In this document: piece after piece, positions 2,823-48,429 of the stretch | Position numbering within the stretch: position 1 is the first letter of the stretch | How the letters are laid out: the number at the start of each line of letters is the position of its first letter | Origin: Halorubrum sp. 48-1-W | GTDB lineage: Archaea > Halobacteriota > Halobacteria > Halobacteriales > Haloferacaceae | Reading direction: 5' to 3' | Length of the DNA stretch: 49,467 nucleotides | Assembly: GCF_003287355.1 (NCBI RefSeq) | Contig: NZ_QMIM01000035.1 | Coordinates: forward strand, 1-49,467 | Position numbers and translations under genes: made by a program | Notes under the pieces: model-generated | What the model saw: only the letters and a program-made list of their open reading frames with translations | What the model was told of the DNA's origin: nothing | The model's database searches: none

Positions 2823-3974
2823 ATGCTACGGCGGACCGCGGCGGATGTTCTTGCGATCCTCGCGGTTCTCGCTGTTATCGCTCTTGTTGTCGGACAACTT
2901 ACTGGTCAACCAGTCTTATTGGGATACGTTACGTCTGGGAGTATGTCACCGACACTCGAAGCCGGTGACGGCTTTGTTGCTGTCCCGGCCACTATGTCAG
3001 ACGACATTGAGTCGGGAGATGTCATCGTATTTGATGCGATCGAACTACAGGGTGGCGGGCTCACGACGCATCGGGTCGTTGGGATTACCGACGAGGGGTA
3101 CATCACACGCGGAGACAACAATCCGTTTCGTGATCAAGAGGGCGAAGAACCCGTGGTGACGGAAGACCGAGTTGTTGCCACCGCCCTCCAAATAAACGGA
3201 CAGGTCGTTCGCGTGCCTGGGCTTGGAACCGGGATCGAAACCGTCAGGGGTACAGCCGAGAGCGCACAGACGACAGTCGCTGAGGCGTTTGGTCTTGAGA
3301 CGGTGGGTTCTCGGACACTGAGTGGGCTATTCATTTCAATCGGTTTGGTACTGCTTTTGATCGTGTTCGCTGATGACTTCCGAGGTCGGCAAGGACGTGA
3401 CAGAACGCGGAACCGGTCTCGATTTGGTACCAAGGGCATCGACGGTCGGTGGGTCGCACTCGGGCTAGCATTTCTAATCTTAGTGCCTGCCAATGCGGCG
3501 CTGTTCGCGCCTGCGGGCACCCAACAGGTGGTCATCGACGGTGACGACCTTCCCGGTGGTACGACGGCTGGTGAAACTGTTGAAACCGAACTTACTGCCG
3601 AGAATAACGGCCTGATTGCCATGCTGGTGCTCTTGGAGACGAGTCACCCGGACGGAGTGTTGAGCCGAAATGAGTTGGCAGCACCGCGTGGTGGGTCAGC
3701 GACGGCGACTCTAACGGTGACGGCCCCTCCGCCCGGGGAACAGGCCATCGTGACGATCTCGGAGCATCGGTACTTTCTGGTCGCGCCGCCGTCACTGATC
3801 GTCTGGCTCCACTCAATTCACCCACTTGTGGCAGTTGCTGCGTTCAACGCGTTGGTACTCGGAAGCGTCCTTACCCTTGTCGGTGCGACCTTCGGGTTTG
3901 GACGACAAAAAGTGCGGAGTCGAAAAAAGCGGAGAAAATCTATATTATACCGACTGCGATATCTGTTTGAGTAA
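2823..3974 (+). CDS. signal peptidase I, archaeal (S26B) type with extra C-terminal domain
   Basis: This membrane protease removes signal peptides on the outer face of the membrane. After an N-terminal anchor (residues 7-27), the S26B catalytic set is intact: Ser40 in TSGSMSPTL, His83 in TTHRVVGI and Asp98 in RGDNN. At 383 residues it is much longer than a minimal archaeal enzyme. A second membrane segment (165-183), a basic loop, a third segment (210-230), an exported region (about 235-320) and a fourth segment (330-355) with a basic tail follow. SipW-like peptidases paired with TasA/CalY-type substrates are encoded next to those substrates, and here exported proteins with unusual leaders follow at 4-8 kb. 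I infer that it processes them. Confidence 0.88.
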   Translation: MLRRTAADVLAILAVLAVIALVVGQLTGQPVLLGYVTSGSMSPTLEAGDGFVAVPATMSDDIESGDVIVFDAIELQGGGLTTHRVVGITDEGYITRGDNNPFRDQEGEEPVVTEDRVVATALQINGQVVRVPGLGTGIETVRGTAESAQTTVAEAFGLETVGSRTLSGLFISIGLVLLLIVFADDFRGRQGRDRTRNRSRFGTKGIDGRWVALGLAFLILVPANAALFAPAGTQQVVIDGDDLPGGTTAGETVETELTAENNGLIAMLVLLETSHPDGVLSRNELAAPRGGSATATLTVTAPPPGEQAIVTISEHRYFLVAPPSLIVWLHSIHPLVAVAAFNALVLGSVLTLVGATFGFGRQKVRSRKKRRKSILYRLRYLFE

Positions 3975-4019
3975 TGGACTCGATGTGTCGTCTGCTGATA
4001 GTCACATAGATACGTCTAC

Positions 4020-4988
4020 TTACGACTCGTGTGCCTGAAAGTCAATGAACCGTATTTCGGATCTGTTGTTTCCATTTGAGCCATCTTCAAATACGAGGAA
4101 GAGGTCATTTCGATTCTTTTCATCGCTTATTTTCTCCCCAGCAGCGGCGCACTTATTAGTAGCTTGAATGACGTATTCGTCCGTGTTTTTCTTGATCTCT
4201 TTGTTACAGCTCAGTCTGACCTCGTCGCCGTCCTCATCTCCGGTCACGATGTACGCGACCAGGCCTCCGGTCGCTTTTTTTGTCCTGACAGTGAGAACGT
4301 ACTTCTCGGCAGACGAAACCGGTGGGAGTACGAATCCGACTTTCAACCCACCGTCCTTGTTTCGGCTGTTCAGTGTAGCGAAATTTTCATCATTGTTACC
4401 GATGTTACTCGGGTACTCCACCGTTCCTCTCGCTTTATCGCCGGGCTGTTCAGCATCGCCCTCTCCGTTGTCGCTGTAGTTGTTTACATCAGCATAGTCC
4501 GCATCTACCGTACAGTCAATGGGGACCGGCTCACCCGCGGTTCGGTCCGTAACGACCGACACCTGCCCGCCTTCGCTCTCTGCTTTCAGGTCGAAACTGA
4601 GTTCGTACTTACCGCTGAACGTGCTCCCGGAACAGCTGATGACGACGTCTTCTCCACTAGTCGACACAGTAATAGGACTGTTTCCTCGACTGATATCGTC
4701 TCCACTTTCCGTTTTGATGTTCGAGAGACTCACGTCGGTGAAATCCCAGTTCACGTTGTTCTCCGCTATTCTGTAGACCGTGGTTTCGTCTCCGAAGCCC
4801 GAGATCTCCGCACTTACTGACTCATCGATAAGCGGCAGAAGGGCCTCAGTGTCGGTAGTCGTCCCGAGATTCACCCCTCGATCGGCCTGAATCTGTATCG
4901 CTGCATCCGTTCTCAGTGCTAATAACCCAGCTCCACCGCTGATGAACCCAATTGCGGCTCGGCGAGTCCACTTCTTATTCTCGCTCAT
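4020..4988 (-). CDS. exported protein with RR/Gly-rich leader, TasA-locus type
   Basis: The 322-residue protein begins with a leader of the form KKWTRRAAIGFISGGAGLL followed by a conserved-looking IQADRGVNLG segment. That combination of Arg pair, Gly-rich core and nearby surface domain is typical of haloarchaeal exported proteins found beside signal peptidase I genes. The rest looks like a beta-rich, acidic extracellular domain. It has four cysteines outside the leader (VISCSG, PIDCTV, LSCNKE, TNKCAA), enough for two disulfides. Its start codon overlaps the stop of the winged-helix membrane protein upstream (ATGA, 4985-4988), so the two are translationally coupled. Its 3' end converges on the signal peptidase gene. 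Its molecular role is unknown; a structural or regulatory surface subunit is my inference. Confidence 0.75.
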   Translation of the reverse strand: MSENKKWTRRAAIGFISGGAGLLALRTDAAIQIQADRGVNLGTTTDTEALLPLIDESVSAEISGFGDETTVYRIAENNVNWDFTDVSLSNIKTESGDDISRGNSPITVSTSGEDVVISCSGSTFSGKYELSFDLKAESEGGQVSVVTDRTAGEPVPIDCTVDADYADVNNYSDNGEGDAEQPGDKARGTVEYPSNIGNNDENFATLNSRNKDGGLKVGFVLPPVSSAEKYVLTVRTKKATGGLVAYIVTGDEDGDEVRLSCNKEIKKNTDEYVIQATNKCAAAGEKISDEKNRNDLFLVFEDGSNGNNRSEIRFIDFQAHES

Positions 4989-5545
4989 TCTCGGAACTCC
5001 GGCGGTTCGTAGCCACTACCAAGCACCGTCTCTCGACTCTCATATACGTGATACGCGGCTGAACCGGCGAACAACACACCGATCAACGCCGCCCACACCA
5101 ACTCCGGAACCGACGCCGGAAAGATACCGACCCAGACGGCAGCCACAAGTGCGAGTGAAAACGCCGATAGCCCAAGATAGTACTCGCCCCACGGAATCGA
5201 ATTCCCAGGAACGATGTCCATGTAGACGTCAAGCTCTTCAGCCTCGTTCGTCAGCTCAAGCTCACCCCGCTCATGGCTGATTACGCCTGCCCGTTCTAGC
5301 CGTGGGATGTGGTTCTGTTGTATAGAAGTGTAGATGAGATGGCGCTCTTGGGAGGTGACTTTCGACCGTGGCTTGTCGTTTTCCCACGCCGCGACTTGCT
5401 CGGCGATCGACGAGAGTTCCGCTGTGCCGTCGTCGCGTTTCAGAATGTGGAGCGTGTGGCGGCGGCGCGGGTTACTCAACAGGTCGTGGATCTCGTCACT
5501 CGAAAGCGGGGAGTCGTCGGTTTCGACCTGTGTTATAGAGTTCAT
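4985..5545 (-). CDS. winged-helix regulator with two C-terminal membrane helices (DUF7344-like)
   Basis: From the ATG at 5545 this gives 186 residues. Residues 12-100 form a winged-helix domain starting SSDEIHDLLSNPRRRHTLHIL, a signature of haloarchaeal DUF7344-type proteins. Two hydrophobic segments (about 122-140 and 147-166) follow. The architecture places DNA binding on the inner face of the membrane, so it may sense envelope state. An open frame continues upstream to 5752, but that part is AT-rich, has odd residues and does not fit the family, so I reject it. The stop codon overlaps the start of the exported protein downstream. I infer that it controls that gene or the wider surface locus. 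Confidence 0.8.
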   Translation of the reverse strand: MNSITQVETDDSPLSSDEIHDLLSNPRRRHTLHILKRDDGTAELSSIAEQVAAWENDKPRSKVTSQERHLIYTSIQQNHIPRLERAGVISHERGELELTNEAEELDVYMDIVPGNSIPWGEYYLGLSAFSLALVAAVWVGIFPASVPELVWAALIGVLFAGSAAYHVYESRETVLGSGYEPPEFRE

Positions 5546-5795
5546 ATGTGATTTGAGAGTGGAAGGGGATTGCTTTGCTACGTAATCAAAATGATATTTA
5601 GAAACATAAATCAGGCGGTTTTCTACATCCACGTAGATAGGGTAATACCTAGCTATTTTGTCAGACAAGAATTGAGTTATTCTGTGTTTTAGCCTACATA
5701 CAGTACCGTTCTGTCCTCTTAGACTACTTATCGCACAAAATAAATCCCACAAGCCAGATTGTACGATGCGTCATCGGGTTGTACCGGTTACAAAC

Positions 5796-6545
5796 TTAGT
5801 TCGATTGTCCGATTACGATATCTAGATTCTCTGTCTCTGTACTGGCGGTTCCGGTGCTGATCTCAGCGCTTTCTTCTTGCCGGTTGGATACAGTACTGAA
5901 TTCAACTCCTGAGCCGTCTGCTGAACTAACAGAACTGCTTGCAATACTGGTAAGAAGTTGTTCCGCATTGTCATTGGCGGTGGTCTGGAATTCAACACTC
6001 GATCCGTTACCTTGCGGATCGGCGAAGGCAAAGAAGGGGTCGTACGTAAGCACCGAGTTCGGTGGCACACCCGCACCATCACTGTCTCCAGGGCCAAATA
6101 CGATCGTCACATCGTTAGCGACGAGACTAACGTATTCCTCTTCGTTGTCAATATTAGCTCCGTCATCAAATGGGTCCCCGCTGTTCTGACCATATACTGA
6201 TGATCCGTCTGTTGGATTGGGGAATAGTGCGGTGCCATCACTAAATAGGGTGCCATCATTAGCACGAACGGCGACGGAGTCCGACGAAATGTCTACGAGA
6301 ACGTCGACTGCGTTACCGGTGATTGTCTCTGCGATTTCTTCCTGAGCATTTTGTTGCTGTGTAGGACCACCATCAAGCTCATTTATCTCAACAACCCCGT
6401 CTGGACCGGCATTGGCACCGAACACGTTCACTTCGACCGCACGCTCGGCAGTAGTTGAGGTAAACGCACCCGACCCGAACGCCGCACCTGTTCCAACTCC
6501 CACCAGCCCGATCGCACCCAGTACGCTTCTGCGGTTAAGCTTCAT
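5796..6545 (-). CDS. exported TasA/DUF1102-like protein
   Basis: The leader MKLNRRSVLGAIGL is followed by VGVGTGAAFGSGAFTS, the typical leader of haloarchaeal proteins that share a locus with SipW-type signal peptidases. Cleavage would fall near the AFGSGAFTS segment. The mature part (about 215 residues) is acidic, free of cysteine and beta-rich, as expected for an extracellular subunit. I chose ATG 6545 (249 residues); a GTG four codons upstream (6557) is possible. It is divergent from 6720-7292, which has nearly the same leader, and the two share a 170-bp control region with several dyads. TasA-like family members assemble into surface fibres by strand exchange; fibre formation here is inference. 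Confidence 0.78.
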   Translation of the reverse strand: MKLNRRSVLGAIGLVGVGTGAAFGSGAFTSTTAERAVEVNVFGANAGPDGVVEINELDGGPTQQQNAQEEIAETITGNAVDVLVDISSDSVAVRANDGTLFSDGTALFPNPTDGSSVYGQNSGDPFDDGANIDNEEEYVSLVANDVTIVFGPGDSDGAGVPPNSVLTYDPFFAFADPQGNGSSVEFQTTANDNAEQLLTSIASSSVSSADGSGVEFSTVSNRQEESAEISTGTASTETENLDIVIGQSN

Positions 6546-6575
6546 TTTTACACTCACACATTACAGAGGAGGCTA

Positions 6576-6719
6576 CATATTAATGCGCCGCGTTAGCAGC
6601 CTAAATGCGCTATTTAGCTGGGTTGTTTGGCTTCAGGGACATCCTGAAGCGGCTTTTGTACGCAGGGTCGCCTACTAACGCGCCGCAATATTATACCCCT
6701 CTGGCTAGAAGGAGGGGTA
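6576..6719. promoter_or_regulatory. divergent promoter region with stacked dyads
   Basis: This short stretch controls two divergent exported-protein genes and holds four inverted repeats. GCGCCGCGTTAG (about 6585) pairs with CTAACGCGCCGC (6675) with one mismatch. CTAAATGCGCTATTTAG (6601-6617) has 6-bp arms. CTTCAGGGACATCCTGAAG (6631-6649) has 7-bp arms. ACCCCTC (6695-6701) pairs with GAGGGGT (6712-6718) right against the ATG at 6720. A TATA-like TTATAC lies at 6691, about 27 bp before 6720, so the rightward transcript may be leaderless and the last dyad would then act as DNA. If transcription starts earlier, the same dyad would hide the GGAGGGG ribosome site. Confidence 0.5.
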
Positions 6720-7292
6720 ATGAAACGACGAGTGGTTCTCGCGGGAATCGGTACCGCCAGCATCGGGGTTGGAGCCGCATTCGGATCCGGGGCGTTCACC
6801 TCAATCGAAGCCGACCGTGACGTTACACTCAATGTCGACAACGACGACAACGCGCAAATAATATTCAAACGAAACTCAGACGCTGTCGGGGCAGAGCGAC
6901 TCATCGGTACTGACGAGAGCAACGCAGTCAACGTAATCGAGTTCTCACAGAGCGATCTTAATGAGCAGTCAAAAACCTCGTTCAAGCAGGCGCTCGTTGT
7001 GGAGAATAACACCGGCGAGAACGGTGATAGCCTCAAAGTCGATCTCTTCGTCAAGGAGGACCAAGATGTCGGAATCAGTGATGGAGGAGTCCTCGATTTT
7101 CGTATTGATGATGGGAATGACTCAACCGTCTCTATTGTCGGCAAGGGGAACAAGTCTCGACTAGACGATACCGAAACAGAACAGATAGACATTATCGTTG
7201 ATCTCCGAGACGATGGTACAAACGACGGCACAAACGACCTAGATGACATTAGTCAGGTAACGTTCATCGTAGAGGCTGTTGACAGTAATTAA
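6720..7292 (+). CDS. exported DUF1102/TasA-like protein
   Basis: The 190-residue protein has the leader MKRRVVLAGIGTASIGVGAA followed by FGSGAFTSIEADRDVTLNV. This is the classic N-terminus of haloarchaeal DUF1102-type proteins encoded beside signal peptidase I. The mature part is a small acidic beta domain ending in QVTFIVEAVDSN. It starts an operon with the Gly-rich surface protein (86 bp downstream) and a rhomboid protease. The same leader in the divergent gene (5796-6545) suggests one processing route for both. I infer a secreted structural subunit; a carbohydrate- or metal-binding role cannot be excluded. Confidence 0.8.
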   Translation: MKRRVVLAGIGTASIGVGAAFGSGAFTSIEADRDVTLNVDNDDNAQIIFKRNSDAVGAERLIGTDESNAVNVIEFSQSDLNEQSKTSFKQALVVENNTGENGDSLKVDLFVKEDQDVGISDGGVLDFRIDDGNDSTVSIVGKGNKSRLDDTETEQIDIIVDLRDDGTNDGTNDLDDISQVTFIVEAVDSN

Positions 7293-7378
7293 AAAATTTC
7301 CACGCACTCTGTGCCGTATCCCGAAGCGCTGCTGAATAAACAAGCTGGCAACGACTCCCCTGACGAACTCCGAATCGA

Positions 7379-8266
7379 ATGAACCGCACCGTCGCCGTCG
7401 TGATTGCCGTTATTATCCTCTGTAGCGGCGCAGTCGCCACCGCAGCGGCGTTTACCGACGGTGATGAGGTCGCGCCCGATTCTGAAATGTATCTCGATGC
7501 CGCCGATAGTGAGAGCGGCGAGCAGTACGTACAAATTGACCAGAACGACGAGGTTCGAATCCGCTTCGACACGCTCCCGCCAGGGAGCCAGACGCGGATT
7601 GATGACCTGTTTGTCGTCGGGTTCGGTGGTTACGAAGACAGCGAGGCCAGCACGACCGTTCACCTCGAAAGCACTGACGAGCGTGTCGCGCTTGAACGGA
7701 TGGACACGGGAGAGACCTTCAACGACGGAACGATCGAACTTCAGCCCGGTGAGTCGGTGTTGTTCGGTGCGGTCGTCTCAACGGGTGGCACAGGGTTCTC
7801 ATCTACCATCGAGCTTGAGGTCGATGTCCCTGACGCCGGTACTGGTGGTGGCGGCAGCGGTGGTGGCGGCCAGGCTGGAGGCGGGGGCAGCCAAGGTGGC
7901 AGCGGTGGCGGAGGTGACACCGGTAGTGATGACGATAGTAGCAGTGGCGGCGACGGAGGTGGTAGCGGTAATGACGAGCCCACTAATGGAGATGGGGATA
8001 CACCAGACGGACCGACAGAAGACGATGAGGGAGGCGAGGAGGGAGCAGACAACCCCGACGACGACACGGACACAGTCAGTGACGCCACCGATCCAAGTGT
8101 CGACCCCGACGCCGACCTCGAGAGCAGTCTGATCGAACTCGCCGGCTTCGGCAATCCGTTTTCGCTGATTTCCATTGGCGTTATCGCGATGATGTTGTCA
8201 CTCAGCTATGTCTACCGGGTCCGAATAGCCACTAATGGCTTCAAGCCCAACACGGAGAAAAAATAA
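7379..8266 (+). CDS. surface protein with Gly-rich linker and C-terminal membrane anchor
   Basis: The 295-residue protein has a signal peptide (residues 1-23), a beta-rich extracellular domain (about 25-150), a Gly/Ser/Asp-rich flexible linker (152-245) and one membrane segment (about 258-278) followed by a basic tail (NGFKPNTEKK). The anchor enters the membrane through GFGNPFS, a helix-breaking sequence like those that make rhomboid substrates. Its stop codon overlaps the start of the rhomboid gene (TAATG at 8264-8268), so the two are made together. I infer that the rhomboid cuts this anchor and releases the protein or controls its attachment. The N-terminal domain resembles the neighbouring DUF1102-type proteins only in general character. 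Confidence 0.8.
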   Translation: MNRTVAVVIAVIILCSGAVATAAAFTDGDEVAPDSEMYLDAADSESGEQYVQIDQNDEVRIRFDTLPPGSQTRIDDLFVVGFGGYEDSEASTTVHLESTDERVALERMDTGETFNDGTIELQPGESVLFGAVVSTGGTGFSSTIELEVDVPDAGTGGGGSGGGGQAGGGGSQGGSGGGGDTGSDDDSSSGGDGGGSGNDEPTNGDGDTPDGPTEDDEGGEEGADNPDDDTDTVSDATDPSVDPDADLESSLIELAGFGNPFSLISIGVIAMMLSLSYVYRVRIATNGFKPNTEKK

Positions 8267-9147
8267 TGACGACGACAACCGACGAAGGGATGACTACCGA
8301 GTCTAGACTTGAGTTACCAGCAGAGGAGTCGTTTGCTGATGCAGTACAGCGTGTTGTTCGGCGGGTCGATATTATTCTCCTCCTATTTCCCGCGGCAGTA
8401 CTCCTTGTGATCGGGCTCTTCCCGTCAGAGGTTCGACGGCAGTTGGCGTTCTCATACGCTGACCCGAGCGTGCTGACAGCGTTTACTTCCAACTTCACCC
8501 ACGCGAACAGTGTCCACCTGCTTCGGAACCTCACGGCGTATCTCGTCGTCGTCCCAACGGCGTACCTCCTCTCGGTACTTGCCGACCGCAGACAACTGTT
8601 TCATACCGTCTTTGTCGTAGTATTCGTTACATTCCCGTTCGTGCTATCCGGGCTGAACCTCGTTGTCCCCCGTGAGGCCCTTTCGCTAGGAGCATCCGGA
8701 TTGACACTTGCGTTTGTCGGCTACCTCCCGGTTGCAGTTGCCCAGTACGTCCGCCGCCGGTTCAGCATCGATAATTTTGTCCGACGGAACATTGCTGCCG
8801 GCCTGTTTTTCGTAGGATTGAGTGTCGTGATCCCGCTCGCAGTTGCTGTCGTCCAACCGGGCCTCACAATCGTTTTGACGTTCGTCGCGTTCCTCGCTGT
8901 CGTCGGATACGGTGTAACGCTGCGACATTCCGGGGTCGATCGGTCGACTCTCCGTGGACCGCCGCCAGGGTTTGTTGAGTTCGGTGTCTGGTCGATCGTC
9001 GTTATTATCGCTGTATTGATAACTGCGTTCCCGGCAGACCCGTTATCGGACGCCGGGCTGGTAAACACGTACACACACTTTCTGGGATACGCGCTAGGCT
9101 TTTTGAGCAGCTACCTCGTAGTATTATTCTTCTTCGACAGTGAGTAG
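8266..9147 (+). CDS. rhomboid family intramembrane serine protease
   Basis: The 293-residue protein has about six to seven membrane segments and a full set of rhomboid landmarks. These are FTHANSVHLLRNL with His79, His84 and Asn88 in the second core helix, the nucleophile Ser144 in LGASGLTLAF, and His271 in YTHFLGYALGF. Rhomboids cut substrates inside the membrane near helix-breaking residues. The gene overlaps the stop of the anchored surface protein by one base and ends an operon that starts with a DUF1102-like secreted protein, so its substrate is probably encoded next to it. A 30-residue cytoplasmic N-terminus precedes the first helix. Confidence in the family is high; the substrate is inference. 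Confidence 0.88.
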   Translation: MTTTTDEGMTTESRLELPAEESFADAVQRVVRRVDIILLLFPAAVLLVIGLFPSEVRRQLAFSYADPSVLTAFTSNFTHANSVHLLRNLTAYLVVVPTAYLLSVLADRRQLFHTVFVVVFVTFPFVLSGLNLVVPREALSLGASGLTLAFVGYLPVAVAQYVRRRFSIDNFVRRNIAAGLFFVGLSVVIPLAVAVVQPGLTIVLTFVAFLAVVGYGVTLRHSGVDRSTLRGPPPGFVEFGVWSIVVIIAVLITAFPADPLSDAGLVNTYTHFLGYALGFLSSYLVVLFFFDSE

Positions 9148-20494: not shown

Positions 20495-23446
20495 TTAGAA
20501 ATTTTGTACTATGAAGGACGCAGTTACTAACTCTGGCTCTTCCGGCGTGACATGTTTTTCTTCTTCAAGTCGGGCAAGTTCCTCATCTTGTTCGCGTCGG
20601 AGGGTCTCAAGCTGCCGGTTCGCATTCCCAATTGGCGCCGACATATCCTCACCTTGTTCATCACGTGTTTGGTACGTCTCAAGTCGATCTTCCCACCGAT
20701 TGATCTCTTCCTCGAAATGCCGCTCTGTATGTTGGCGTTTGATTTTCGTCTCGCGTTCGCGCTCTTCACGGGCCTCCTGAGCGAACGACTCGACATGGTT
20801 CCAAGCCTCCATCTCCGCCTGCTGATAGAGGTCATCAGCCATCGACGTCAGCCGGTCGAGTCCCTCGATAGCATTCGCTTCTGAGGGCGGTAGGGTATCG
20901 ACGATCTCGGGTGATGATGTGGCGACCGTTCCGTTCGTGGTGACGTATAGGCTGACGAGCTTCTCAGTAACCACATCTCCAGCTCCGGAGATGTACCCGA
21001 GTCGGTAGGTGAAACAAATACCGGGCGCAGCATCGTCTTCCGTCGTCTTGAGTGCAATCTTTCCCTCCACACGGTCTGAGTCGAGACAGAAGTCGATGAG
21101 CGACTGGACGAGCGGGTGGTCAAGCGCGATAAAGTCGACGTCGTCCTGCTCCATCGCGACCTCTCTCGTGAATGTCGCCATGGGATATCGCTGCTTGACC
21201 TGATCGCCGGAGAGTACGTTGGGAACATCCAGCTGATAGACATCGCCACCGGAGCGAGCGGGTCCGGGGCGGACACCCTTGATGTCTCCCTTGAAGACAT
21301 CGAAGAACTCGCGGACGAGGATCTCAATGTCGTCTTCGCTCACCTCACCGTGTTGACTCCGCTCGATGACGTCGAGTATCTCCTTGTCCTCGTCGGAAAG
21401 GTCGAACCGGTCACGGATGAGGAACTGCTCTTCGACCGTCTCTAGGGCTTCCTTGCGCTCTTCTATCGTCGCCTCGATGTTCGCGACGACTTCGCCGGTG
21501 GGCGTGTCGTTCGCGATAGCGGCCATGATGGTCTCGTCGAGGTCGACGTCTTCGAGGACGCGACCCATCACGTCGGAACGCATCCCGAGGTCGGCCTCGA
21601 TCTGGTCAGTTTTCTCGAGGAGTAGAGAGAGGATCTCACTCTCACGGGTGTCCTTGAAGAAGAGGTTGCGGATCTCGACGGTGTGCTCCTGGCCGTACCG
21701 GTGGAGACGACCCATCCGCTGGTCGATGCGGATCGGGTTCCACGGGAGGTCGTAGTTCACCATGATGTGGGCGAACTGGAGGTTGAGCCCCTCCTGTGCC
21801 GCGTCGGTCGCGAGCATGATGTTGGCCTCCTCCTCGAACTTCTCCATCTCGCGGCGGCGACGGTCCTGATTGAGGTCGCCGTACACCTGCGCGATATCGT
21901 GCTCGGGGAATATCTCGTCGCGGAGGTATTCGAGGGTATCCGTGTACTCGGTGAAGATGAGAACCTTCTCGTCGGGGTCTTCCCGGAGGATCCGGCCAAC
22001 GAACTGCTTGAGGATTTGGGCCTTCGAGTCGGTCTCGATGGCCTTGGCCTGCTGCCAGAGCTGTTTGACCCGGTCAAGTTCCGCTTGTACCTGGTCGGGG
22101 TTCTGCGTGATTGTGACCGTCTCTAGGGCCTCCTCGACCCGATTGCGCTCCGCGTCGGTCAGGGTCTCGGGTTCGGTGCTGTACTGGGGAATGAGCTCTT
22201 GGACGTCGTCGGGGAGTTCCTGTCCGGTTCCCTCGTTCTGAATGGCTCGCATACGGTTCTCGAGAGATTTACGGATGGCGTAGATGCTCGACACCAGCCG
22301 CTTCTGGTAGATGACCATCGTGAAGCCGGCGGCCTGATTCTCCTCCTGGCGGGCGAGGTTGTAGTATTCGCGGATGTACTCGGTGACGTCGTCGTACAGC
22401 TTACGCTCGGCGGCGGACATCTCGACGCCGAGAGCCTCGATGTTCTTCTCGGGGAACATACGGGTCCCGTCCGTCTCGTACATGTCGTCCTTCAGCCGGC
22501 GGATCATCAGGTCGTCGAGGGCCTCGGGTTCGATCTGGGACTCGTGGCCGAAGCGGTACGGGTCGAGCAGGCTGATGAGGAAGTAGAACTGGTCGGACTT
22601 GCCCTTGTGTGGGGTCCCAGTGAGCAGCAGCAGCGCGTCTGAGTTGTTTGCGACGGCCTCGCCGACGCGGTAGCGCTGGGTTCGTTCCATCGAGTCGTCG
22701 CTCGACCGCCTGGCGGTGAGGTGGTGGGCCTCGTCGAATACGGCGACGTCCCACTCGGGTTCGAGGTTGTCGAGTGCGTCGATAGGCGAGACAGCGTCTG
22801 AACCCGTCTCGTCGGTGGACTGCTTGGCGAAGTCCACGGAGGTGATGATGAAGTCCTCTTGTGCCCAAACGTTCTGGTTCGGATGCGACTGGCGTTTCGA
22901 TCGGACGGTCTCGCGGTCGTAAATGACGAAGTTCTGATCGAACTTCTCGCGCATTTCCTCCTGCCACTGGACCGTGAGCGGAGCGGGCGCGACGATGAGG
23001 ACGCGGTCGGCGCGACCGCGAGCGATGAGCTCCTCGATGACGATCCCAGCCTCGATGGTCTTCCCGAGGCCGACCTCGTCACCGATGAGGTAGCGGTGAT
23101 CGTACGAGTTGAGGATTTCGTAGGCAGCTTGGACTTGGTACGGTTCGATCTCGATGCGGTTGTTCGTCAGCGAGAGGAACCGGTCGTAGCGGTACGCGAG
23201 ATCGAGGCGGGTCGCACGCTCCCGCAGATCGTAGTGAACCGGATCATCAACCCGTTTGGCCGCAAGTCGGTCGACAGTAGAGTCGATCTTCTCGATATGA
23301 GGCAAGCCGCTCGGAAGCTTGCGGAGTTGGCCTTCCATGGTGTAGACATGGAGCAGATGGCTTCCATTTGGACGCTCTTCGATCTTGGTAATCTCGCCCT
23401 GCCCACCGGCGAATTTGACGTGGTTGCCGACCGTGAAATCAGTCAT
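20495..23446 (-). CDS. SNF2/superfamily 2 helicase of a restriction-type operon (DrmD/type ISP-like)
   Basis: The 983-residue ATPase has Walker A IGDEVGLGKT (121-130), motif II DEAH (238-241), LTGTPHKG, and in the second RecA domain LNLQFAHIMVNYDLPWNPIR followed by QRMGRLHRYGQ. The first 60 residues form a small beta domain starting VGNHVKFAGGQGEI, and the last 250 are helical and charged. Such helicases with an Eco57I-type methyltransferase next door occur in class 1 DISARM (DrmD with DrmMI) and related phage-defence or restriction loci. DrmA, DrmB and DrmC are not in the window. Its start overlaps the end of the methyltransferase gene by 8 bp, so the two are coupled. Function in DNA translocation is inferred from the family. 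Confidence 0.85.
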   Translation of the reverse strand: MTDFTVGNHVKFAGGQGEITKIEERPNGSHLLHVYTMEGQLRKLPSGLPHIEKIDSTVDRLAAKRVDDPVHYDLRERATRLDLAYRYDRFLSLTNNRIEIEPYQVQAAYEILNSYDHRYLIGDEVGLGKTIEAGIVIEELIARGRADRVLIVAPAPLTVQWQEEMREKFDQNFVIYDRETVRSKRQSHPNQNVWAQEDFIITSVDFAKQSTDETGSDAVSPIDALDNLEPEWDVAVFDEAHHLTARRSSDDSMERTQRYRVGEAVANNSDALLLLTGTPHKGKSDQFYFLISLLDPYRFGHESQIEPEALDDLMIRRLKDDMYETDGTRMFPEKNIEALGVEMSAAERKLYDDVTEYIREYYNLARQEENQAAGFTMVIYQKRLVSSIYAIRKSLENRMRAIQNEGTGQELPDDVQELIPQYSTEPETLTDAERNRVEEALETVTITQNPDQVQAELDRVKQLWQQAKAIETDSKAQILKQFVGRILREDPDEKVLIFTEYTDTLEYLRDEIFPEHDIAQVYGDLNQDRRRREMEKFEEEANIMLATDAAQEGLNLQFAHIMVNYDLPWNPIRIDQRMGRLHRYGQEHTVEIRNLFFKDTRESEILSLLLEKTDQIEADLGMRSDVMGRVLEDVDLDETIMAAIANDTPTGEVVANIEATIEERKEALETVEEQFLIRDRFDLSDEDKEILDVIERSQHGEVSEDDIEILVREFFDVFKGDIKGVRPGPARSGGDVYQLDVPNVLSGDQVKQRYPMATFTREVAMEQDDVDFIALDHPLVQSLIDFCLDSDRVEGKIALKTTEDDAAPGICFTYRLGYISGAGDVVTEKLVSLYVTTNGTVATSSPEIVDTLPPSEANAIEGLDRLTSMADDLYQQAEMEAWNHVESFAQEAREERERETKIKRQHTERHFEEEINRWEDRLETYQTRDEQGEDMSAPIGNANRQLETLRREQDEELARLEEEKHVTPEEPELVTASFIVQNF

Positions 23447-26400
23447 CGGCGACTGCGGACTTGACGATCTCGATCTCCTCGCCGGTCAAGTCGTAGAGGT
23501 CGTAAACGATCTCGTCGATGAGCCGGTCGGTCTCCTCGATCTTTGCGTCGAGTTCATCGGCGCGTTCCTTCGTCTCGATGTAGCGTTCCAGATCGTCGGC
23601 CACGTCGTCGGGGTTCGGTAGTGTGATCGCCTTCAGACGGTCGACGAGCGAGTTCGTCTTGGTGGCGTTCTCACGGAAGCCGGCGATCTCGTCGTCAACG
23701 GCAACCGGGACGAACGCCGCGACGAGAGCGGCCTCGCGCTCGGAGCAGTCGACGAGCGTGAACGCCTCGACGAACTCGGTCTCGGTGTAGCCGTACGTGT
23801 CGGTCTCGTGCGCGTCTTCGTCTTCGGGCTTGTAGCGCGCCGTCGCGAAAATCGTGACGCTCGTGCCGTCGCGCTCGGCGCGCACGTCGCCCACACGGAG
23901 CTTCTCGTACTCCTCGGTCGTCGCGTCGAGGACGTTCGACTCGCTCGGCTGGAAGAGACCGACGTCGGGAAGATCCGGGCCGTCTTCGTAGTTACCGAGG
24001 TAGTCGGGGAGGTTCAAATTCAGTTTGACACGATTGTGTGTGTATTCAATCCGTTGTTTTGTATATCCGGACAACCATCCGAGTAGTTCTTTTTCACTCG
24101 CATCTGTAATTTTGATTGTGGACTGCTTCGGCAATTCACTTTTTTGTATTGATTCTATAGACGATTCCGAAGGAAGATACACGGGGATCTGTCTGATGTC
24201 AGATGGATAAACGTGTAGACCGCTCTCAATCAATTTTTTATAATAATATGATACTAATGAAGAGTTCCACTGAGCTAATATACACTCATTTGGGATCTCA
24301 CTAATCGCTCTATATTCTGTTCCAGTTGGGATATCTGTATTTCGCATTTTGTCATCATCTAATTCAGTCACTTTAACACAGCAATTTATAGTATTATCAC
24401 AATACATTCCAGTATCATCTAAAGCTACAGCCAGTCCATTATCCCCAACTACGTCCTGAATCAGCAACTTCTCATTTTCAAATAATTCTGGGAACCTAGG
24501 CCGTTTCATTTTAGAAGGTTCATAATCAATATAGCGGCTTGGGGACGGTATCGTCCATGGAACAACTTCTTTTCCTTCTATATATGGCTTATCTCGTGCT
24601 GTTTGCTTTGTATCATGGATCCGATCTCCTTTGGTATTTCCTGCGTCTACAGAATATATCTCAAGGCCTCTACAGACATAATAAAAGTCGCCTGTAAATA
24701 TCTGTCCTTGGACTTTCTGTAGTATTTCCGTATCTTTGCTATCTAGGTTAACACGAATGCGGTTATTGTATATGTCCTTAAATAACGAATTTTCCACAGA
24801 GACCGGATTCGAGATATCTTGTATTGATTTGGACTCTCTCTCTCCATGACTGATCTCAATACTATATCCGTCAGATTTTGTGTTTTCTAACGTCTGTATT
24901 ATATTTCTCACACCTACGTTTTCGAACACTTCTTGATTCGAGAGGTCTAATATACGATTTGTCTTCAAATCGAATAGCTGTCGATGTCGGAACTTCTTAG
25001 CGTAATTCTCATATAAATGTGGGTACGGTATGATCATGGAAGTTAATCCTCCATCTTTTACCAAATATATTGATCTATCCATGAAGCAGAGATATATGTC
25101 AAATCTTCCGTGAGTGGAAGGGTATAGTTCAGAATCGGTGAGGTAACTCCGGATGCTTTCGGTTTGGTTCTCTGGACTCACATACGGCGGATTCCCGATC
25201 ACTGCGTCGAACCCGGCGTCAGCCTTGCGGCCGCCGTCCTCGTCGTAGAACGCTACCGGGAACTCCAACTCCCAGTGGAAGAAGCGCTCGTCTGCCGCCA
25301 TCAACTGCGCGCTTATAAACCAGTCCTGCGCTTCGATGTCGCTCCACGAATCAGCGCGCAGGGCCTCCGCCATGCGCTTATCGGCGTCGCTCGGCACGTC
25401 GAGGCCGAAGCGCTCGGCGGTATGGACGTTCGCCATCGCCAGCAGGTGCCGGTAGAGGGGGTCCTCGCGGACCGCGTCGTACACGTCTTCCATTTCCTTC
25501 GCGTCTTCGAGCGTCTCGTTGTCGATGGCGAGCAGGCTCTGGAACCGGTCCATCACGTGCTCTAAGGCTTGCTGTCGCGTGTGTGCGAACGATTGCTCTA
25601 AGGTCAACTGTCCGTCGCCGGTATCGCTGCCGTCGCCGTTCGCCAGCACGTCCTCTATATCGCTGCCAACGAGCGAGTTCCCGGTCTTCAGATGATGATC
25701 GAGAAAAGCGAGAGGTTGCTCGGCTGCGAGCGTCCGCAGCCAAAGTGACACCTTCGCGAGTTCAGTCGCAAGCGGATTTCGGTCGACCCCGTAGATACAT
25801 CGCTGGGCCACCTTCCGGCGCGCCCAGTTGATGTCGTGATCTTCCTGGACCGTCTCGATCCCCTGCTGGGCCGCTTGCCGCTCCTGTGCGTCGATGATCT
25901 CCCGTGCGAGGTAGTCGACGGCGCTCGTGAGGAAGTGCCCGCTCCCCATTGCGGGGTCGAGCAGTTTCAACTCGAAGACGCGCTCGGCGAACTCCTCAGC
26001 GAACCCGCCCTCGCTGTAGGAGTCGTACCCGACCAGATCCTCCCGAATGTCGTCGACCAGCGGCCCGAGCGTCTCGTCGACGATGTACTCGACGACGTAC
26101 TCGGGCGTGTAGTACGAGCCCGTCGCCTTCCGCTCGCCGCTGCCCGTCGTGAGGTACACCTCGCCCGCCTCGACCGTGACCTCGTCGCTCTCGTCCGCCT
26201 CGACGTACTCGTCGCCGTCGAGCGCCAACGGTCCGTCAGCGACATGCAGCTGGTACTCAAGGAGACCCTCGTAGATGCTGCCGAGGTGGCGGACATCCAG
26301 CGACGAGTAGTCGACGAAGATCTTCCCGCCACCGTTCCTGCTTGCTCCGCGTGAGCAGCTCGATGACACGGGAAAGGTAGGCGTCGCCCACCGTGTGCTC

Positions 26401-27564
26401 CGCGAGGAACCGGGCTTCGGGGTCGTCGTCCTCATCCGGGTCAGTCCGGAATAGGCCGCCGTTGTATGCCGGGATGTGCAGGTCCTCCTTAGGAATCCCG
26501 CGTGACTTGCTCCCTTGGTCGATCAGCTCGAATAACTCGTCGAGCCGCGAGCTCAGGTCGTCCTGCCAGTCACGATACTTCGGATCGCCGCTATCGAGCT
26601 CCTCGGCGACCTCCTGCTTGAGGGAGTTCAGGCTGTAGGACTGCTCGTAGATCTCGTTGTCTGTGTCCAGCAGGTCCCGCCCCTCAGCTTCCGCGTACAG
26701 GACGAATATGAGCCGGTAGAGGTAGATCAACGAGGAGTCGTGGACGAGGCCTAGGTCATCCTCGTCGAGGTCGTTGTCGGGGTATTGGAGATACCCCTCC
26801 GAGAGCACCTTGATAGCTTCGTAGATGTTGTCTTGGAGGTCCTCCCCAAGGTCTTGAGCGAAGACGTTGGACTCGTCATAGACGTCGTCGAGGAAGCAGT
26901 CGCCGCCGGAGTCTTCGAGGAATGCGCCGTGCCGGAAGAAGAGGTAGAAGTATTTGAAGTCCTCAAGATCCCCCTTCTCCAGGACGGTAGGCAGGTCGAT
27001 CTCGTAGTAGGAGTCGAGCCTGTGGCTCGTCGGCCCGTAGTAGAGCCGCCACTTCTTCCCGTCCGTCAGCACCGCCCACCGGGCGGGCGTCTCCTGGAGG
27101 TAGACGTGGATCTGGTAGCTCGGGTTCTCGAAGTCGCGCTCGTGCTCTCCGCTCCCCCGCGTGTCGAGCGGGCGTCCCCAGCGCTTAGCGTCGGCGACGG
27201 CGACCGCGTTCTCGTAGAAGTCGCCCCCCCCTTCGCGGCGCTCGAAGGCGTCACGCGCGGCGTCTTCGGTCTCGAAGAAGCCGTAGTCCGGTCGGCGCTG
27301 TGTCCGGCTCGTGCTCTCCTCGACCTCGAAGGGAATCCCTAGCTTCCGGAACATCGGCCGGATGAACTTCTCCTCCAGCTGGGACTCGTTCCGCTTCGGG
27401 GCCGTGCTCTTCTCCCGGTCGTAGAGATCGACGATCTCGTCGTACGCGGCTTCTAGTTCGTCGTCGTCGACTTCGTCCCACTCCTCCGTCTCTGGGAGGT
27501 GCTCGTCGAGGTAGTAGTTAGAGAACAGGTCACGATTCGTGCGGTAGGTGAGTGAACTTTGCAT
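23439..27564 (-). pseudogene. Eco57I-type methyltransferase with N-terminal nuclease domain, frameshifted
   Basis: Two overlapping frames make one gene of about 1,370 codons. The first (27564 to about 26345) has a PD-(D/E)XK-like core, QRRPDYGFFETEDA and AVAVADAKRWGRPLD. The second resumes as NGGGKIFVDYSSLDVRHLGS and carries the adenine methylase core: TGSYYTPEYVVEY, LLDPAMGSGHFLTSAVDYLA and the catalytic NPPY in FDAVIGNPPYVSPENQ. About one base is lost or gained near 26335-26350. The nuclease plus methylase layout is like type IIG enzymes, and with the helicase it resembles DISARM DrmMI. About 24010-25190, just after NPPY, is AT-rich and probably the target recognition domain. A sequencing error would restore an active gene; otherwise restriction is broken and the second half may still methylate if translated. 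Confidence 0.8.
26335..26350 (-). other. frameshift point in the methyltransferase gene
   Basis: Upstream the frame reads VGDAYLSRVIELLTRSKQ and then becomes senseless (ERWREDLRRLLVAGC, stop at 26257). In the next frame the sequence is sensible from RNGGGKIFVDYSSLD on. The switch falls in AGCAAGCAGGAACGG (minus strand). A one-base indel is the simplest cause. Confidence 0.75.
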
Positions 27565-33182: not shown

Positions 33183-33690
33183 CACCCTCCGGCGCTTCGA
33201 GTGTTTCGAGCTGTACGCCGACAGCGATCGACGCTGAAATCCCAGCCGATCTCACACACACCACGTCTTCAAGTGTCTCCGATGACCAAACAGCCGTTCT
33301 AATTGTCGACCTTACACACCACCCGTTCAAGTGTTCAACTATAACCACCGACGCGATTGCGTACAATCTGCTGTCGGTCCTGTCGAGGCCAGTTCGTCGT
33401 CAGGACAGTGCGTCGAACAAACGAGACACCAGTCGGGACCACCCACACTCCACTATTTCAAGTGTTCAAGTAGACAGTGACGAGTGCTACGTACGATTTT
33501 AGCTGATCGAGTCTCTATTACGTCTTCTCTTATTCTACTACATTCACAAAAAATGGTTTGCGGGTGTGGTACGCAGACATTTGTGATAAATGTTAGCGTC
33601 GCACAGGGTCTCGAATATCCATCCGAAACTGACCCCCCTACTCGTTCCACCTGGAACACTCGAAACGGTGGAGTGTCTGTGTGGGTCAGT
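33183..33690. repeat. candidate replication origin with ORB-like repeats beside orc1/cdc6
   Basis: At least three direct copies of the pattern ACAC-CCAC-N3-TTCAAGTGT occur at 33256-33275, 33314-33334 and 33443-33465, with a weaker one at 33183-33203. An inverted copy, ACACTCGAAACGGTGGAGTG, lies at 33657-33677. The reverse of the pattern (CACTTGAA..GTGGTGTGT) looks like haloarchaeal origin recognition boxes. An AT-rich stretch (33490-33560) lies between the direct and inverted copies, as expected for an unwinding element. The Orc1/Cdc6 gene follows at once. No coding capacity is seen. Confidence 0.65.
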
Positions 33691-33710
33691 CGAAACAGTT
33701 GAAGCCCCGG

Positions 33711-33740
33711 TTTTATATGGTATCTGTGTATGGAACCGAT
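33711..33740 (+). promoter_or_regulatory. TATA box for the first orc1/cdc6 gene
   Basis: TTTTATAT at 33711-33718 is centred about 27 bp before ATG 33741. This fits a leaderless transcript and supports that start over 33717 or 33681. Origin-like repeats lie just upstream, so the initiator could bind its own promoter. Confidence 0.5.
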
Positions 33741-34991
33741 ATGGACAATCTCGGTCACCTCACGCCCGAGGATGAAATCTTCCTCGATGAAGACGTGCTC
33801 CGGGACGATTACGATCCGTCCCGCATCCTCGAACGCGATGAGGTGTTGAATCGCTACCTCCAGATGTTCTCCGAAGTGATTCGTGGAAAGCGACCGCGTA
33901 ACGTGTTCGTCTACGGACCGACCGGTGTCGGCAAGACTGTTGGCACCCATCTCGTGCTCGATCGTGTTCGCGAGGACGCCGATGGCGTCGACGATGTCGA
34001 CGTGACGGCCGTCCAAATGGAATGTCGTGACCTCAATACGAGCTATCAGGTCGCTGTGAATCTCGTGAACGTCCTCCGGGAGTCGACGCCCCGATCGAGT
34101 ATCTCGACGACAGGCTACCCCGAGGGGGACGTGTACGACATGCTGTTCGACGAGTTACGCAAGGCTGACACCACGCACGTTCTGATCGCACTAGACGAAA
34201 TTGACAATATCGGAACGAGTGATAACGTCTTGTACAAGCTCGGGCGGTGTAACAATCGTAATTCTGCGAAATTTGTCGATCCCGACGATACGAAAGTTGG
34301 ACTCATCGGAATCACGAACGACTCGACGTTCCGCGACTCGCTGGATCCACGAGTCAAATCGACGCTCTGTGAACACGAGATTCATTTCCCACCGTATGAT
34401 GCGAACGAACTGCGAACGATCCTCAAAGATCGTGCCGCCGACGCGTTTCATGATGGTGTGCTGACTGACGATGTGGTTCCGATAACGGCCGCGTTCGCCG
34501 CGAAGCGCTCTGGATATGCCCGGACAGCACTCGATCTGTTGTATACGGCTGGCGACCTGGCGCGCACCAGCGACGACAATATCGTTACTGAACAGCACGT
34601 CCGGCAGGCCGAAGAGGAGATCCAGCAGGGCGCGATTGTGAGCGAAATTGCATCATTATCGCCCCAAGGCAAACTCGTTGCGTACACTCTGCTTGCACTC
34701 GATAATGAAGGCGAACTACCCGCGAAGATGGACGCCTTCTACGCGTGGTACGAACACGCCGCACGGCTCGCAGAGACTGATACGGTCACCGCTCGGACGG
34801 TCCGCGATCTGTTGAATGACCTCGTGATCAACGGCGTCGCGAAGATGGAAGAGATCAACCGCGGCCAGCGCGGTGGTCGCCACTACCGCTACTCGCTCGC
34901 GGCACGCCCTGAAATGATCATTGATGGTCTCACCGAGGATGATACAATAACCGAACTGGATGAACAACGCGGTGGCAAACTCTTCCGGTGA
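33741..34991 (+). CDS. Orc1/Cdc6 family replication initiator (first)
   Basis: The 416-residue AAA+ ATPase has Walker A GPTGVGKT (59-66), Walker B LIALDEID (148-155), a sensor 1 GITND, a lid helix region with SGYARTALDLLYTAGDLA, and a C-terminal winged-helix domain (about 310-400) ending in a basic RGQRGGRHYRY wing. The protein binds origin recognition boxes and opens the origin. It follows a cluster of ORB-like repeats, its likely target. Haloarchaea often have several such genes, each with its own origin, especially on plasmids. It is distinct from the second copy at 38105 (different lengths and diverged). Start chosen from the TATA position. Confidence 0.93.
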   Translation: MDNLGHLTPEDEIFLDEDVLRDDYDPSRILERDEVLNRYLQMFSEVIRGKRPRNVFVYGPTGVGKTVGTHLVLDRVREDADGVDDVDVTAVQMECRDLNTSYQVAVNLVNVLRESTPRSSISTTGYPEGDVYDMLFDELRKADTTHVLIALDEIDNIGTSDNVLYKLGRCNNRNSAKFVDPDDTKVGLIGITNDSTFRDSLDPRVKSTLCEHEIHFPPYDANELRTILKDRAADAFHDGVLTDDVVPITAAFAAKRSGYARTALDLLYTAGDLARTSDDNIVTEQHVRQAEEEIQQGAIVSEIASLSPQGKLVAYTLLALDNEGELPAKMDAFYAWYEHAARLAETDTVTARTVRDLLNDLVINGVAKMEEINRGQRGGRHYRYSLAARPEMIIDGLTEDDTITELDEQRGGKLFR

Positions 34992-38104: not shown

Positions 38105-39370
38105 CTACATCTCGCGCTTCACTGACTCTTTAACGACGTTTGGGTCTTTCAGGAGTCGGTGTTGCTTGTACGTCCCACCGGCTCGTCCACCGCTTTCCAG
38201 CGTGGATTCAAGAGTATCATTAAAAGCGTGTTCACGTAGCAGGTCGCGGACGCGGTCGATCTTGAGGTGGTTGGCGGCCTCCTGCTCGCACACCTCCACG
38301 TAGGCATCGTAGACGCGGGTAGTTCGAAAATCCGATTCGTCGGTGTTCTGCGTCAACTCCGCGAGTGCTAAGAGCACGTATCGGGCGTGAGGTGTGTCGG
38401 TCGCGAGGAGTTCACGGAGTCGATCAACCTCGGCTTTCTTTTGGGCTTCGTTGACGTGGCGCTCCTGTACCTGTTCGGCACCCTCCTGTTCAGCGAGCTT
38501 CCCGGCGTTCTTCAAGATCCGAACGGCCTTGCGGGCATCACCGTGTTCACGCGCGGCGAGAGCTGCTGTCCGGGGAATGATTTCTGAAGCGAGGACACCG
38601 TCGTGAAATGCATCTTTCCGGGCAGAGAGAATGTTCTGTAGTTGGGTTGCGTCGTATGGTGGGAAAACTGTCTCTTCGTTGCCGAGCGACGAGAGGACGC
38701 GAGAGTTTAATTCATCACCCCACTCGATCTTGTTCGAGATGCCGATAACGCCAATGTATGACTCCGTCTTTTCGCTTTCTCCAGCCCGAGATAACTGCAT
38801 CAGGAGCGTGTTGGCGTCCTCAGATGGTTGGAGTTGGTCAATCTCATCAAGAATGACGATCCCGCCGTCATAGTGGTCTTCTAATAACGACCAGATGTAT
38901 GAATAGTAGTGGGAGGGTCCGAGCCCGGTGAGCGGGATAGACTCGGGTTCGCCGGCAAGTTCGTTCAACTCGCGGGCGATCTTAGAACTCGCCTGTGCTT
39001 CCGTATTGTGCTGTGCGCAGTCGACATATACCATTTCGACGTTCGTGTCACGTGATTCTGCCTCACGGACGACGCGGCGGGAGGTGTGCTTGCTCACGAG
39101 CGATTTTCCTGTGCCGGTCTTCCCGTATATCATCACTGAGGTGGGCTCCGAGTTTGTCACCAGCGGCCCGATATTACTGGCGACATACTGGATCTGCTCG
39201 GTGCGACCAGCGATTCGGTCACTCCCTGGAACGGTGGAGATTTCGAGAAGTTCGGGCCGACGGATCAGCTCCGTCCGGTTCAGCACGCCCGCTTCAGCGA
39301 ACAGCGGGTCGCCGCCACTCGATGGCTCCTGCTTGCTGTCCGCGGGATCGTCATGCTCATCGTCAGCCAT
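38105..39370 (-). CDS. Orc1/Cdc6 family replication initiator (second)
   Basis: The 421-residue AAA+ ATPase has Walker A GKTGTGKS (83-90), Walker B IVILDEID (171-178), sensor 1 GISNK, and the lid segment HGDARKAVRILKNAGKLAEQ. Its C-terminal winged helix (about 320-410) ends in GGRAGGTYKQHRL. It would bind the ORB-like repeats that lie directly upstream (39405-39977). A TATA-like TAGATATAT about 27 bp before ATG 39370 supports that start; GTG/ATG 39397 is in frame. The acidic first 25 residues are not part of the fold. It differs strongly from the first initiator, so the two came from different replicons or an old duplication. Confidence 0.93.
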   Translation of the reverse strand: MADDEHDDPADSKQEPSSGGDPLFAEAGVLNRTELIRRPELLEISTVPGSDRIAGRTEQIQYVASNIGPLVTNSEPTSVMIYGKTGTGKSLVSKHTSRRVVREAESRDTNVEMVYVDCAQHNTEAQASSKIARELNELAGEPESIPLTGLGPSHYYSYIWSLLEDHYDGGIVILDEIDQLQPSEDANTLLMQLSRAGESEKTESYIGVIGISNKIEWGDELNSRVLSSLGNEETVFPPYDATQLQNILSARKDAFHDGVLASEIIPRTAALAAREHGDARKAVRILKNAGKLAEQEGAEQVQERHVNEAQKKAEVDRLRELLATDTPHARYVLLALAELTQNTDESDFRTTRVYDAYVEVCEQEAANHLKIDRVRDLLREHAFNDTLESTLESGGRAGGTYKQHRLLKDPNVVKESVKREM

Positions 39371-39404
39371 AGGGGTGCGTTTCAAGGCCACCACCATATA
39401 TCTA

Positions 39405-48345: not shown

Positions 48346-48429
48346 CGTAGTTACCAATTCGAGTTTACCGCGACTGCGTCAGTTCAAGACGCGCCGCACC
48401 CTCCGGGGCGCACAAAAAACCGCTTGCGG

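Follow-up and report, generated by a model that had tools for sequence, protein, structure and literature searches.

A rhomboid protease gene conservedly linked to TafF-like surface proteins with a shared C-terminal tail in haloarchaeal Tat-fimbria-type loci

We analyzed a DNA stretch of Halorubrum sp. 48-1-W (contig NZ_QMIM01000035.1, positions 1 to 49,467; the whole 49,467-nucleotide stretch is called the window here), in which positions 2823 to 9147 carry a gene cluster for exported fimbrial proteins that ends in a rhomboid protease gene. Across haloarchaea, this rhomboid is conservedly coupled, far above chance, to an anchored TafF-like surface protein. The sequences show the gene content, the conserved pairing, a shared C-terminal tail, and an intact active site; a functional pairing between the rhomboid and the TafF-like tail is likely. 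We consider it fairly probable that the locus as a whole is a twin-arginine translocation (Tat) fimbria locus in which the TafF tail is recognized and cut by the cotranslated rhomboid. The fibre system itself is already known, being covered by the NCBIfam models for TafA, TafC, TafE, and TafF, and the rhomboid is the new element. An earlier reading made from the sequence alone knew of no description of a rhomboid in such a system; the pairing of rhomboid and TafF-like tail does appear new, and we found no description of it in the literature searched (the full text of Galeva et al. 2025 lay outside that search). The features of the locus are as follows.

2823 to 3974, forward strand: SipW/archaeal-type signal peptidase I (S26B) with a C-terminal exported domain (TIGR02228, 70.4 bits)
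4020 to 4988, reverse strand: TafC-like Tat-exported protein (NF052521, 57.1 bits, residues 4 to 148)
4985 to 5752, reverse strand: winged-helix (DUF7344) membrane regulator (PF24035, 82.1 bits)
5796 to 6557, reverse strand: TafA-like fimbrial subunit with Tat leader and AFGSGAFTS (NF052520, 185.5 bits)
6720 to 7292, forward strand: TafE fimbrial adapter protein with Tat leader and AFGSGAFTS (NF052522, 170.8 bits)
7379 to 8266, forward strand: TafF-like anchored surface protein (NF052523, 172 bits, profile positions 2 to 234 of 379)
8135 to 8233, forward strand: TafF C-terminal tail (ELAGFGNPFS, transmembrane helix, YRVR), proposed rhomboid substrate (alignment; 43.2 bits)
8266 to 9147, forward strand: rhomboid protease (S54) (PF01694, 24.3 bits)
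8695 to 8697, forward strand: codon of rhomboid catalytic Ser144 (GASG), invariant in 79 of 79 aligned homologues
9076 to 9078, forward strand: codon of rhomboid catalytic His271, invariant in 79 of 79 aligned homologues

All seven open reading frames (ORFs) lie where the sequence-only reading had placed them, and its description of their products was borne out for the signal peptidase, the three exported proteins with RR leaders, the winged-helix membrane regulator, the Gly-linker surface protein with its GFGNPFS-type anchor, and the rhomboid with a full catalytic set and an overlapping start. The tafF stop codon and the rhomboid start codon share one base (TAATG, 8264 to 8268). The TafF-like protein is laid out as a signal peptide, a beta domain, a Gly/acid linker, ELAGFGNPFS, one transmembrane helix, and YRVR; its AlphaFold2 (AF2) model combines a confidently predicted beta domain with a disordered linker and a helix at residues 260 to 286. 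The rhomboid exceeds the PF01694 cut-off of 22.6 bits and has an active-site set of Ser144 in GASG, His271, and His79/His84/Asn88, with His79 as invariant as the two catalytic residues and His84 and Asn88 each present in 78 of the 79 homologues. For the signal peptidase, which exceeds the cut-off of 51.9 bits of the archaeal signal peptidase I model, Ser40 (SGSMSP), His83, and Asp98/Asp104 were read directly from the sequence, and the exported domain sits between two hydrophobic segments. The TafC-like, TafA-like, and TafE proteins have twin-arginine leaders, the latter two sharing AFGSGAFTS, and the DUF7344 protein bears C-terminal membrane segments, its gene overlapping at its end the start of the tafC-like gene.

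Linkage of the rhomboid to TafF-like genes

In a survey of 391 Halobacteria genomes, all searched with the rhomboid, TafE, and TafF, a rhomboid of the window family was found within 8 kb of 69 of 129 TafF-like places, compared with about 0.6 expected under random placement, so the linkage proposed in the sequence-only reading recurs in other genomes. All but one of these 69 rhomboids (68) lie downstream of the TafF-like gene on the same strand. One hundred loci from the survey were read in detail and showed two architectures. In tafi loci proper, the window type, the gene order sipW, tafC, winged helix-turn-helix (wHTH) regulator, tafA, tafE, tafF is kept in many sister loci, with TafC-like matches at the same place; direct adjacency of the rhomboid and TafF is confined to the window and two other genomes of Halorubrum; in some other genomes a few kilobases separate the two. 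The other architecture is a widespread operon with a divergent wHTH gene, one to four TafE-like genes, a TafF-like gene, the rhomboid, and sipW, in which the TafF-like protein commonly has about 480 to 560 residues and is shorter in Haloarculaceae. A locus of this second type is also present in the window's own genome (L155; contig 17 of G000), with a TafF-like tail scoring 54 bits.

A named set of 64 loci, from Halorubrum, Halobellus, Halolamina, Halobacterium, Haloarcula, Halosimplex, Halarchaeum, and other genera, was assembled by an alignment-based search, which found matches in genome contigs where a single-sequence search gave none; some of its genomes overlap those of the first set. It contained a tail-adjacent rhomboid in 50 loci, sipW nearby in 55, a wHTH homologue in 44, and a TafE-like gene in 47. 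Of 106 tail-adjacent rhomboids, 95 have a homologue of sipW no more than 10.5 kb away. Around 14 distant haloarchaeal control rhomboids, none of the taf, sipW, wHTH, or tail neighbours was found, and the 11 of them that were placed in a tree form a separate clade (SH-like approximate likelihood ratio test [SH-aLRT] support of 99).

These observations also bear on the reading that the rhomboid is merely carried along with the cluster and has no functional tie to it. The common descent of orthologous operons makes the counts look more independent than they are, and the P values for co-occurrence ignore the kinship of the genomes. Yet independent arrangements (same-strand, convergent, and with unrelated partners) are seen repeatedly in many genera, and such neighbours are absent around the distant rhomboids; we give hitchhiking very little credence.

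Four loci (L102, L103, L122, and L133) were noted separately. L103 and L122 have, between a multi-helix TafF and the rhomboid, a gene on the opposite strand that encodes a membrane-anchored protein, and in the rhomboid frame of L122 and L133 there is no ATG, GTG, or TTG near the expected start.

The C-terminal tail of the rhomboid's neighbours

The protein encoded beside the rhomboid usually ends in an acidic linker, an E-x-x-G-[FIL] motif, one hydrophobic helix, and Arg. A profile seeded with TafF-like tails was run over the 8351 ORFs of the 100 loci and matched mainly C-termini adjoining the rhomboid, including those of unrelated proteins outside the seed: a PKD protein of 846 residues, a choice-of-anchor-D protein of 3374 residues, a cohesin-like protein of 297 residues, and a VWD/trypsin protein of 1253 residues, the last two encoded convergently with the rhomboid. 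Over the whole class, 81 of 96 tails of at least 35 bits and 85 of 123 tails of at least 25 bits lie within 2.5 kb of a rhomboid; 6 of the 123 adjoin one on the opposite strand, and four of these are outside the seed. With kinship ignored, all 79 genomes with a tail of at least 35 bits have a strong rhomboid, compared with 132 of 391 overall, and outside the genus Halorubrum the corresponding figures, likewise uncorrected for kinship, are 40 of 40 and 90 of 345. The nonadjacent tails of at least 35 bits are all in rhomboid-bearing genomes, most of those examined belonging to wHTH/TafE-like/TafF-like loci without a rhomboid of their own. Because such tail proteins occur in rhomboid-bearing genomes, the sequences suggest a many-to-one pairing, in which one enzyme would serve several substrates; genome G008, for example, combines a single rhomboid with several tail proteins. 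The shared tail suggests that the TafF-like protein is a rhomboid substrate, and the tail-bearing neighbours are probably the enzyme's natural targets.

Several findings weigh against this interpretation. Because neighbours of the rhomboid supplied the seed of the tail model, the adjacency is partly circular, a problem that the unrelated and convergent tail proteins escape only in part. In 14 of the 64 named loci, a linked rhomboid has no detected adjoining tail, and genome G288 lacks a strong rhomboid despite having genes for a tail protein, sipW, and TafE-like proteins. The tail of the window itself scores 43.2 bits with a model that includes window-type seeds, but it was not found by a profile built without them, and with a clade-matched model its two orthologues reached no more than 14.4 and 11.3 bits (E values of 0.017 and 0.065). 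The window tail is divergent, and since the match vanished in this way, its assignment relies on position and orthology and not on a profile independent of it. Some tail helices in Haloarculaceae are internal and are followed by about 120 to 140 residues, unlike a classic sorting tail. In these loci (L107, L108, L129, L149, and L159) the trailing domain is presumably cytoplasmic, and a cut there might signal inward as well. Finally, where no rhomboid adjoins a multi-helix TafF, an ExxG-like motif still precedes the C-terminal helices, for which reason the absence of the motif was dropped as a mark of such TafFs.

Where a tafi locus has no rhomboid next to its TafF, this protein ends in additional membrane helices or, in one case, in a PGF-CTERM tail (TIGR04126, 28.4 bits, above the curated cut-off). 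Extra helices, PGF tail, and rhomboid-linked tail thus read as replacing one another within the TafF family. Membership of the rhomboid-linked tail in PGF-CTERM was rejected: TIGR04126 finds 8 to 25 PGF tails per genome in 11 genomes, none of the matches listed is a rhomboid-linked tail, the rhomboid-linked neighbours checked gave no match, and the window TafF gave none at an E value of up to 10. It is accordingly very unlikely that archaeosortase ArtA processes these tails like PGF-CTERM and that the rhomboid beside them has an unrelated function, since a true PGF-type TafF does reach 28.4 bits, even if the tail is superficially PGF-CTERM-like and the PGF-pre-PGF domain (TIGR04213), by name a companion of PGF tails, is present in several rhomboid-linked proteins that end in the E-x-x-G-[FIL] tail.

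CoaP_CTERM and GVDTG_CTERM were likewise rejected as the tail family, nothing in 10 genomes exceeding their cut-offs of 35 and 29; one rhomboid-linked tail (L165, G295:C1:909403) scored 24.7 bits with CoaP_CTERM, against 35, a hint that CoaP tails are perhaps also rhomboid-processed. Beside one otherwise unlinked control rhomboid (L227, genome G318), a protein of 747 amino acids is encoded 114 bases away on the opposite strand and ends in a PGF-like tail (FPGFG, transmembrane helix, RRE).

Fimbrial identity and possible roles of the rhomboid

According to the consulted text of PMC12687288, which cites Galeva et al. (2025, iScience 28:111793) as the source study, Taf proteins are the subunits of haloarchaeal Tat-fimbriae ("tafi"). 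By its genes (relatives of TafA, TafC, TafE, and TafF, a SipW-like peptidase, and a DUF7344 regulator), the window locus is a pilus cluster of this type. Its TafE lies above the curated cut-off of 155 bits and its TafA-like protein, matched over its full length, just under that of 190, and the TafC-like and TafF-like proteins match in their N-terminal parts alone, with cut-offs of 410 and 420. The TafE profile matches the solved pilin 9p0a (E value of 3.6e-34), and for the AF2 model of TafE (predicted local distance difference test score of 73) the nearest PDB folds are the Pyrobaculum (AbpA) bundling pilin, FimA, and Sulfolobus threads; the bundling pilin ranked first (E value of 2.7e-3), FimA second to seventh, and TasA 17th (0.064), none with an E value below 0.001. 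A TasA-like fold for TafF was rejected, as the fold search gave diffuse beta-sandwich matches alone. Because of the rank of TasA and the lack of a clear TasA-like fold in TafF, the kinship of the fibre is closer to the known haloarchaeal Tat-fimbriae than to TasA. The surface-fibre system proposed in the sequence-only reading is thus upheld by its own signal peptidase and the Taf matches, the kinship to TasA is the more distant one, and its expected donor-strand folds are the nearest ones, with weak E values, for TafE and not for TafF. The DUF1102 label suggested there fits the TafF-like proteins of sister loci (PF06510) and none of the window genes.

In the mechanism we favour, TafA, TafC, and TafE would leave the cell folded through Tat, and the dedicated SipW-like peptidase would remove their leaders. 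TafF would cross the membrane by its own signal peptide and stay anchored by the one helix at its C terminus, and its Gly/acid linker would reach across the S-layer and hold the pilus. The cotranslated rhomboid would then recognize the tail, with the helix-breaking E-x-x-G-[FIL] at the outer face of the helix and Arg inside, and cut it, after which TafF and the pilus might be freed, or TafF might be handed to another anchor. Rhomboid and tail would form a haloarchaeal counterpart of rhombosortase and GlyGly-CTERM. By membership, the window rhomboid was rejected as a rhombosortase, its 16.8 bits with TIGR03902 being far under the cut-off of 84 and control rhomboids matching too (weak matches in 19 of 20 linked rhomboids, best E value of 4.7e-5, and in 3 of 10 controls); by analogy, it may nonetheless work like one. 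A sequence search of linked rhomboids against solved structures gave no match at an E value of up to 0.01.

Beyond the cut itself, we raise tentatively that the rhomboid serves a second haloarchaeal sorting route, cutting E-x-x-G-[FIL]/helix/Arg tails and re-anchoring surface proteins, with TafF as the founding substrate. A regulated sheddase, which would cut TafF so that pili come off when the cell has to abandon a surface, without re-anchoring, we consider somewhat unlikely. The release of ectodomains is typical of rhomboids, the AF2 model of TafF shows a long, flexible linker and a single helix, and the internal tails with presumably cytoplasmic domains fit cutting rather than sorting; on the other hand, operon coupling with a signal peptidase suggests biogenesis over occasional release, and TafF homologues that keep permanent anchors or a PGF tail of the lipid-anchoring type point to anchoring as the need. 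It seems improbable that the rhomboid is mainly a quality-control or assembly factor that removes unassembled TafF, the tail being a transmembrane anchor with a structurally conserved motif. The ExxG-like motif in TafFs without an adjacent rhomboid and the linked rhomboids without a detectable tail partner would fit such a factor, but it leaves unexplained why unrelated giant surface proteins bear the same tail and why co-occurrence is complete in the 79 genomes.

Other genes of the window and related systems

Upstream of the locus, the reverse-strand gene at 1588 to 2295 encodes a secreted protein that has two PepSY domains and ends in a highly acidic tail; it lies near a two-domain winged-helix regulator (612 to 1151). 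At 23439 to 27564 (reverse strand), a type IIG/DrmMI-like methyltransferase is present as two overlapping ORFs of 435 and 998 amino acids in different frames. The two ORFs correspond to consecutive stretches of the same models, probably because of a frameshift or assembly error. As an SNF2 helicase (BrxHII/DrmD-like, 20495 to 23446) adjoins the methyltransferase, this is a probable defence island. A Cdc6/Orc1 gene (Pfam) and a second ORF that reads like another are found at 33681 to 34991 (forward) and 38105 to 39397 (reverse), and an ArdC/IrrE-like gene at 47416 to 48357 (reverse); these genes suggest that the contig is a plasmid or secondary replicon. The GC content of the window is about 54%, seemingly low for Halorubrum.

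The window locus shares with tafi, as far as PMC12687288 relates the findings of Galeva et al., the subunit families, the Tat leaders, and the sipW/tafC/wHTH/tafA/tafE/tafF order. In contrast to the reference TafF, the window protein lacks profile positions 235 to 379, with their extra membrane helices; it ends in a tail with one helix, and its gene directly overlaps that of the rhomboid. The SipW-TasA/CalY system of Bacillus and the pilins of Pyrobaculum (7ueg) and Sulfolobus threads (7pnb) resemble it in a dedicated archaeal-type signal peptidase and beta-sandwich pilins; Tat leaders, rhomboid, and tail set it apart from them, and the fold match is weak by E value. The portion of PMC11985538 consulted calls the role of archaeal rhomboids poorly understood and deals with Haloferax Rho1 (HVO_1474) and Rho2 (HVO_0727), likewise rhomboids of the haloarchaeal cell surface; there, rho2 lies in an operon with endV, and we found in that portion no linkage to pilin or sipW genes and no tail partner.

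With this pairing, culturable haloarchaea offer specific candidate substrates and a proposed cut segment that can be tested; if true, the pairing would link intramembrane proteolysis to pilus anchoring. It would also define a new tail class beside PGF-CTERM/ArtA, which it resembles in a motif-helix-Arg tail on haloarchaeal surface proteins, with PGF-pre-PGF upstream in some, and from which it differs in the enzyme and in that the PGF model misses the rhomboid-linked tails. The closest parallel is the rhombosortase/GlyGly-CTERM system (Haft and Varghese 2011, PMC3237569), whose principle would be extended to Archaea. As there, a rhomboid goes with a tripartite tail, adjacent where dedicated and elsewhere many-to-one, here as judged from the genes; unlike there, the setting is haloarchaeal, in SipW/pilin operons, and E-x-x-G-[FIL] takes the place of the Gly/Ser-rich GlyGly motif.

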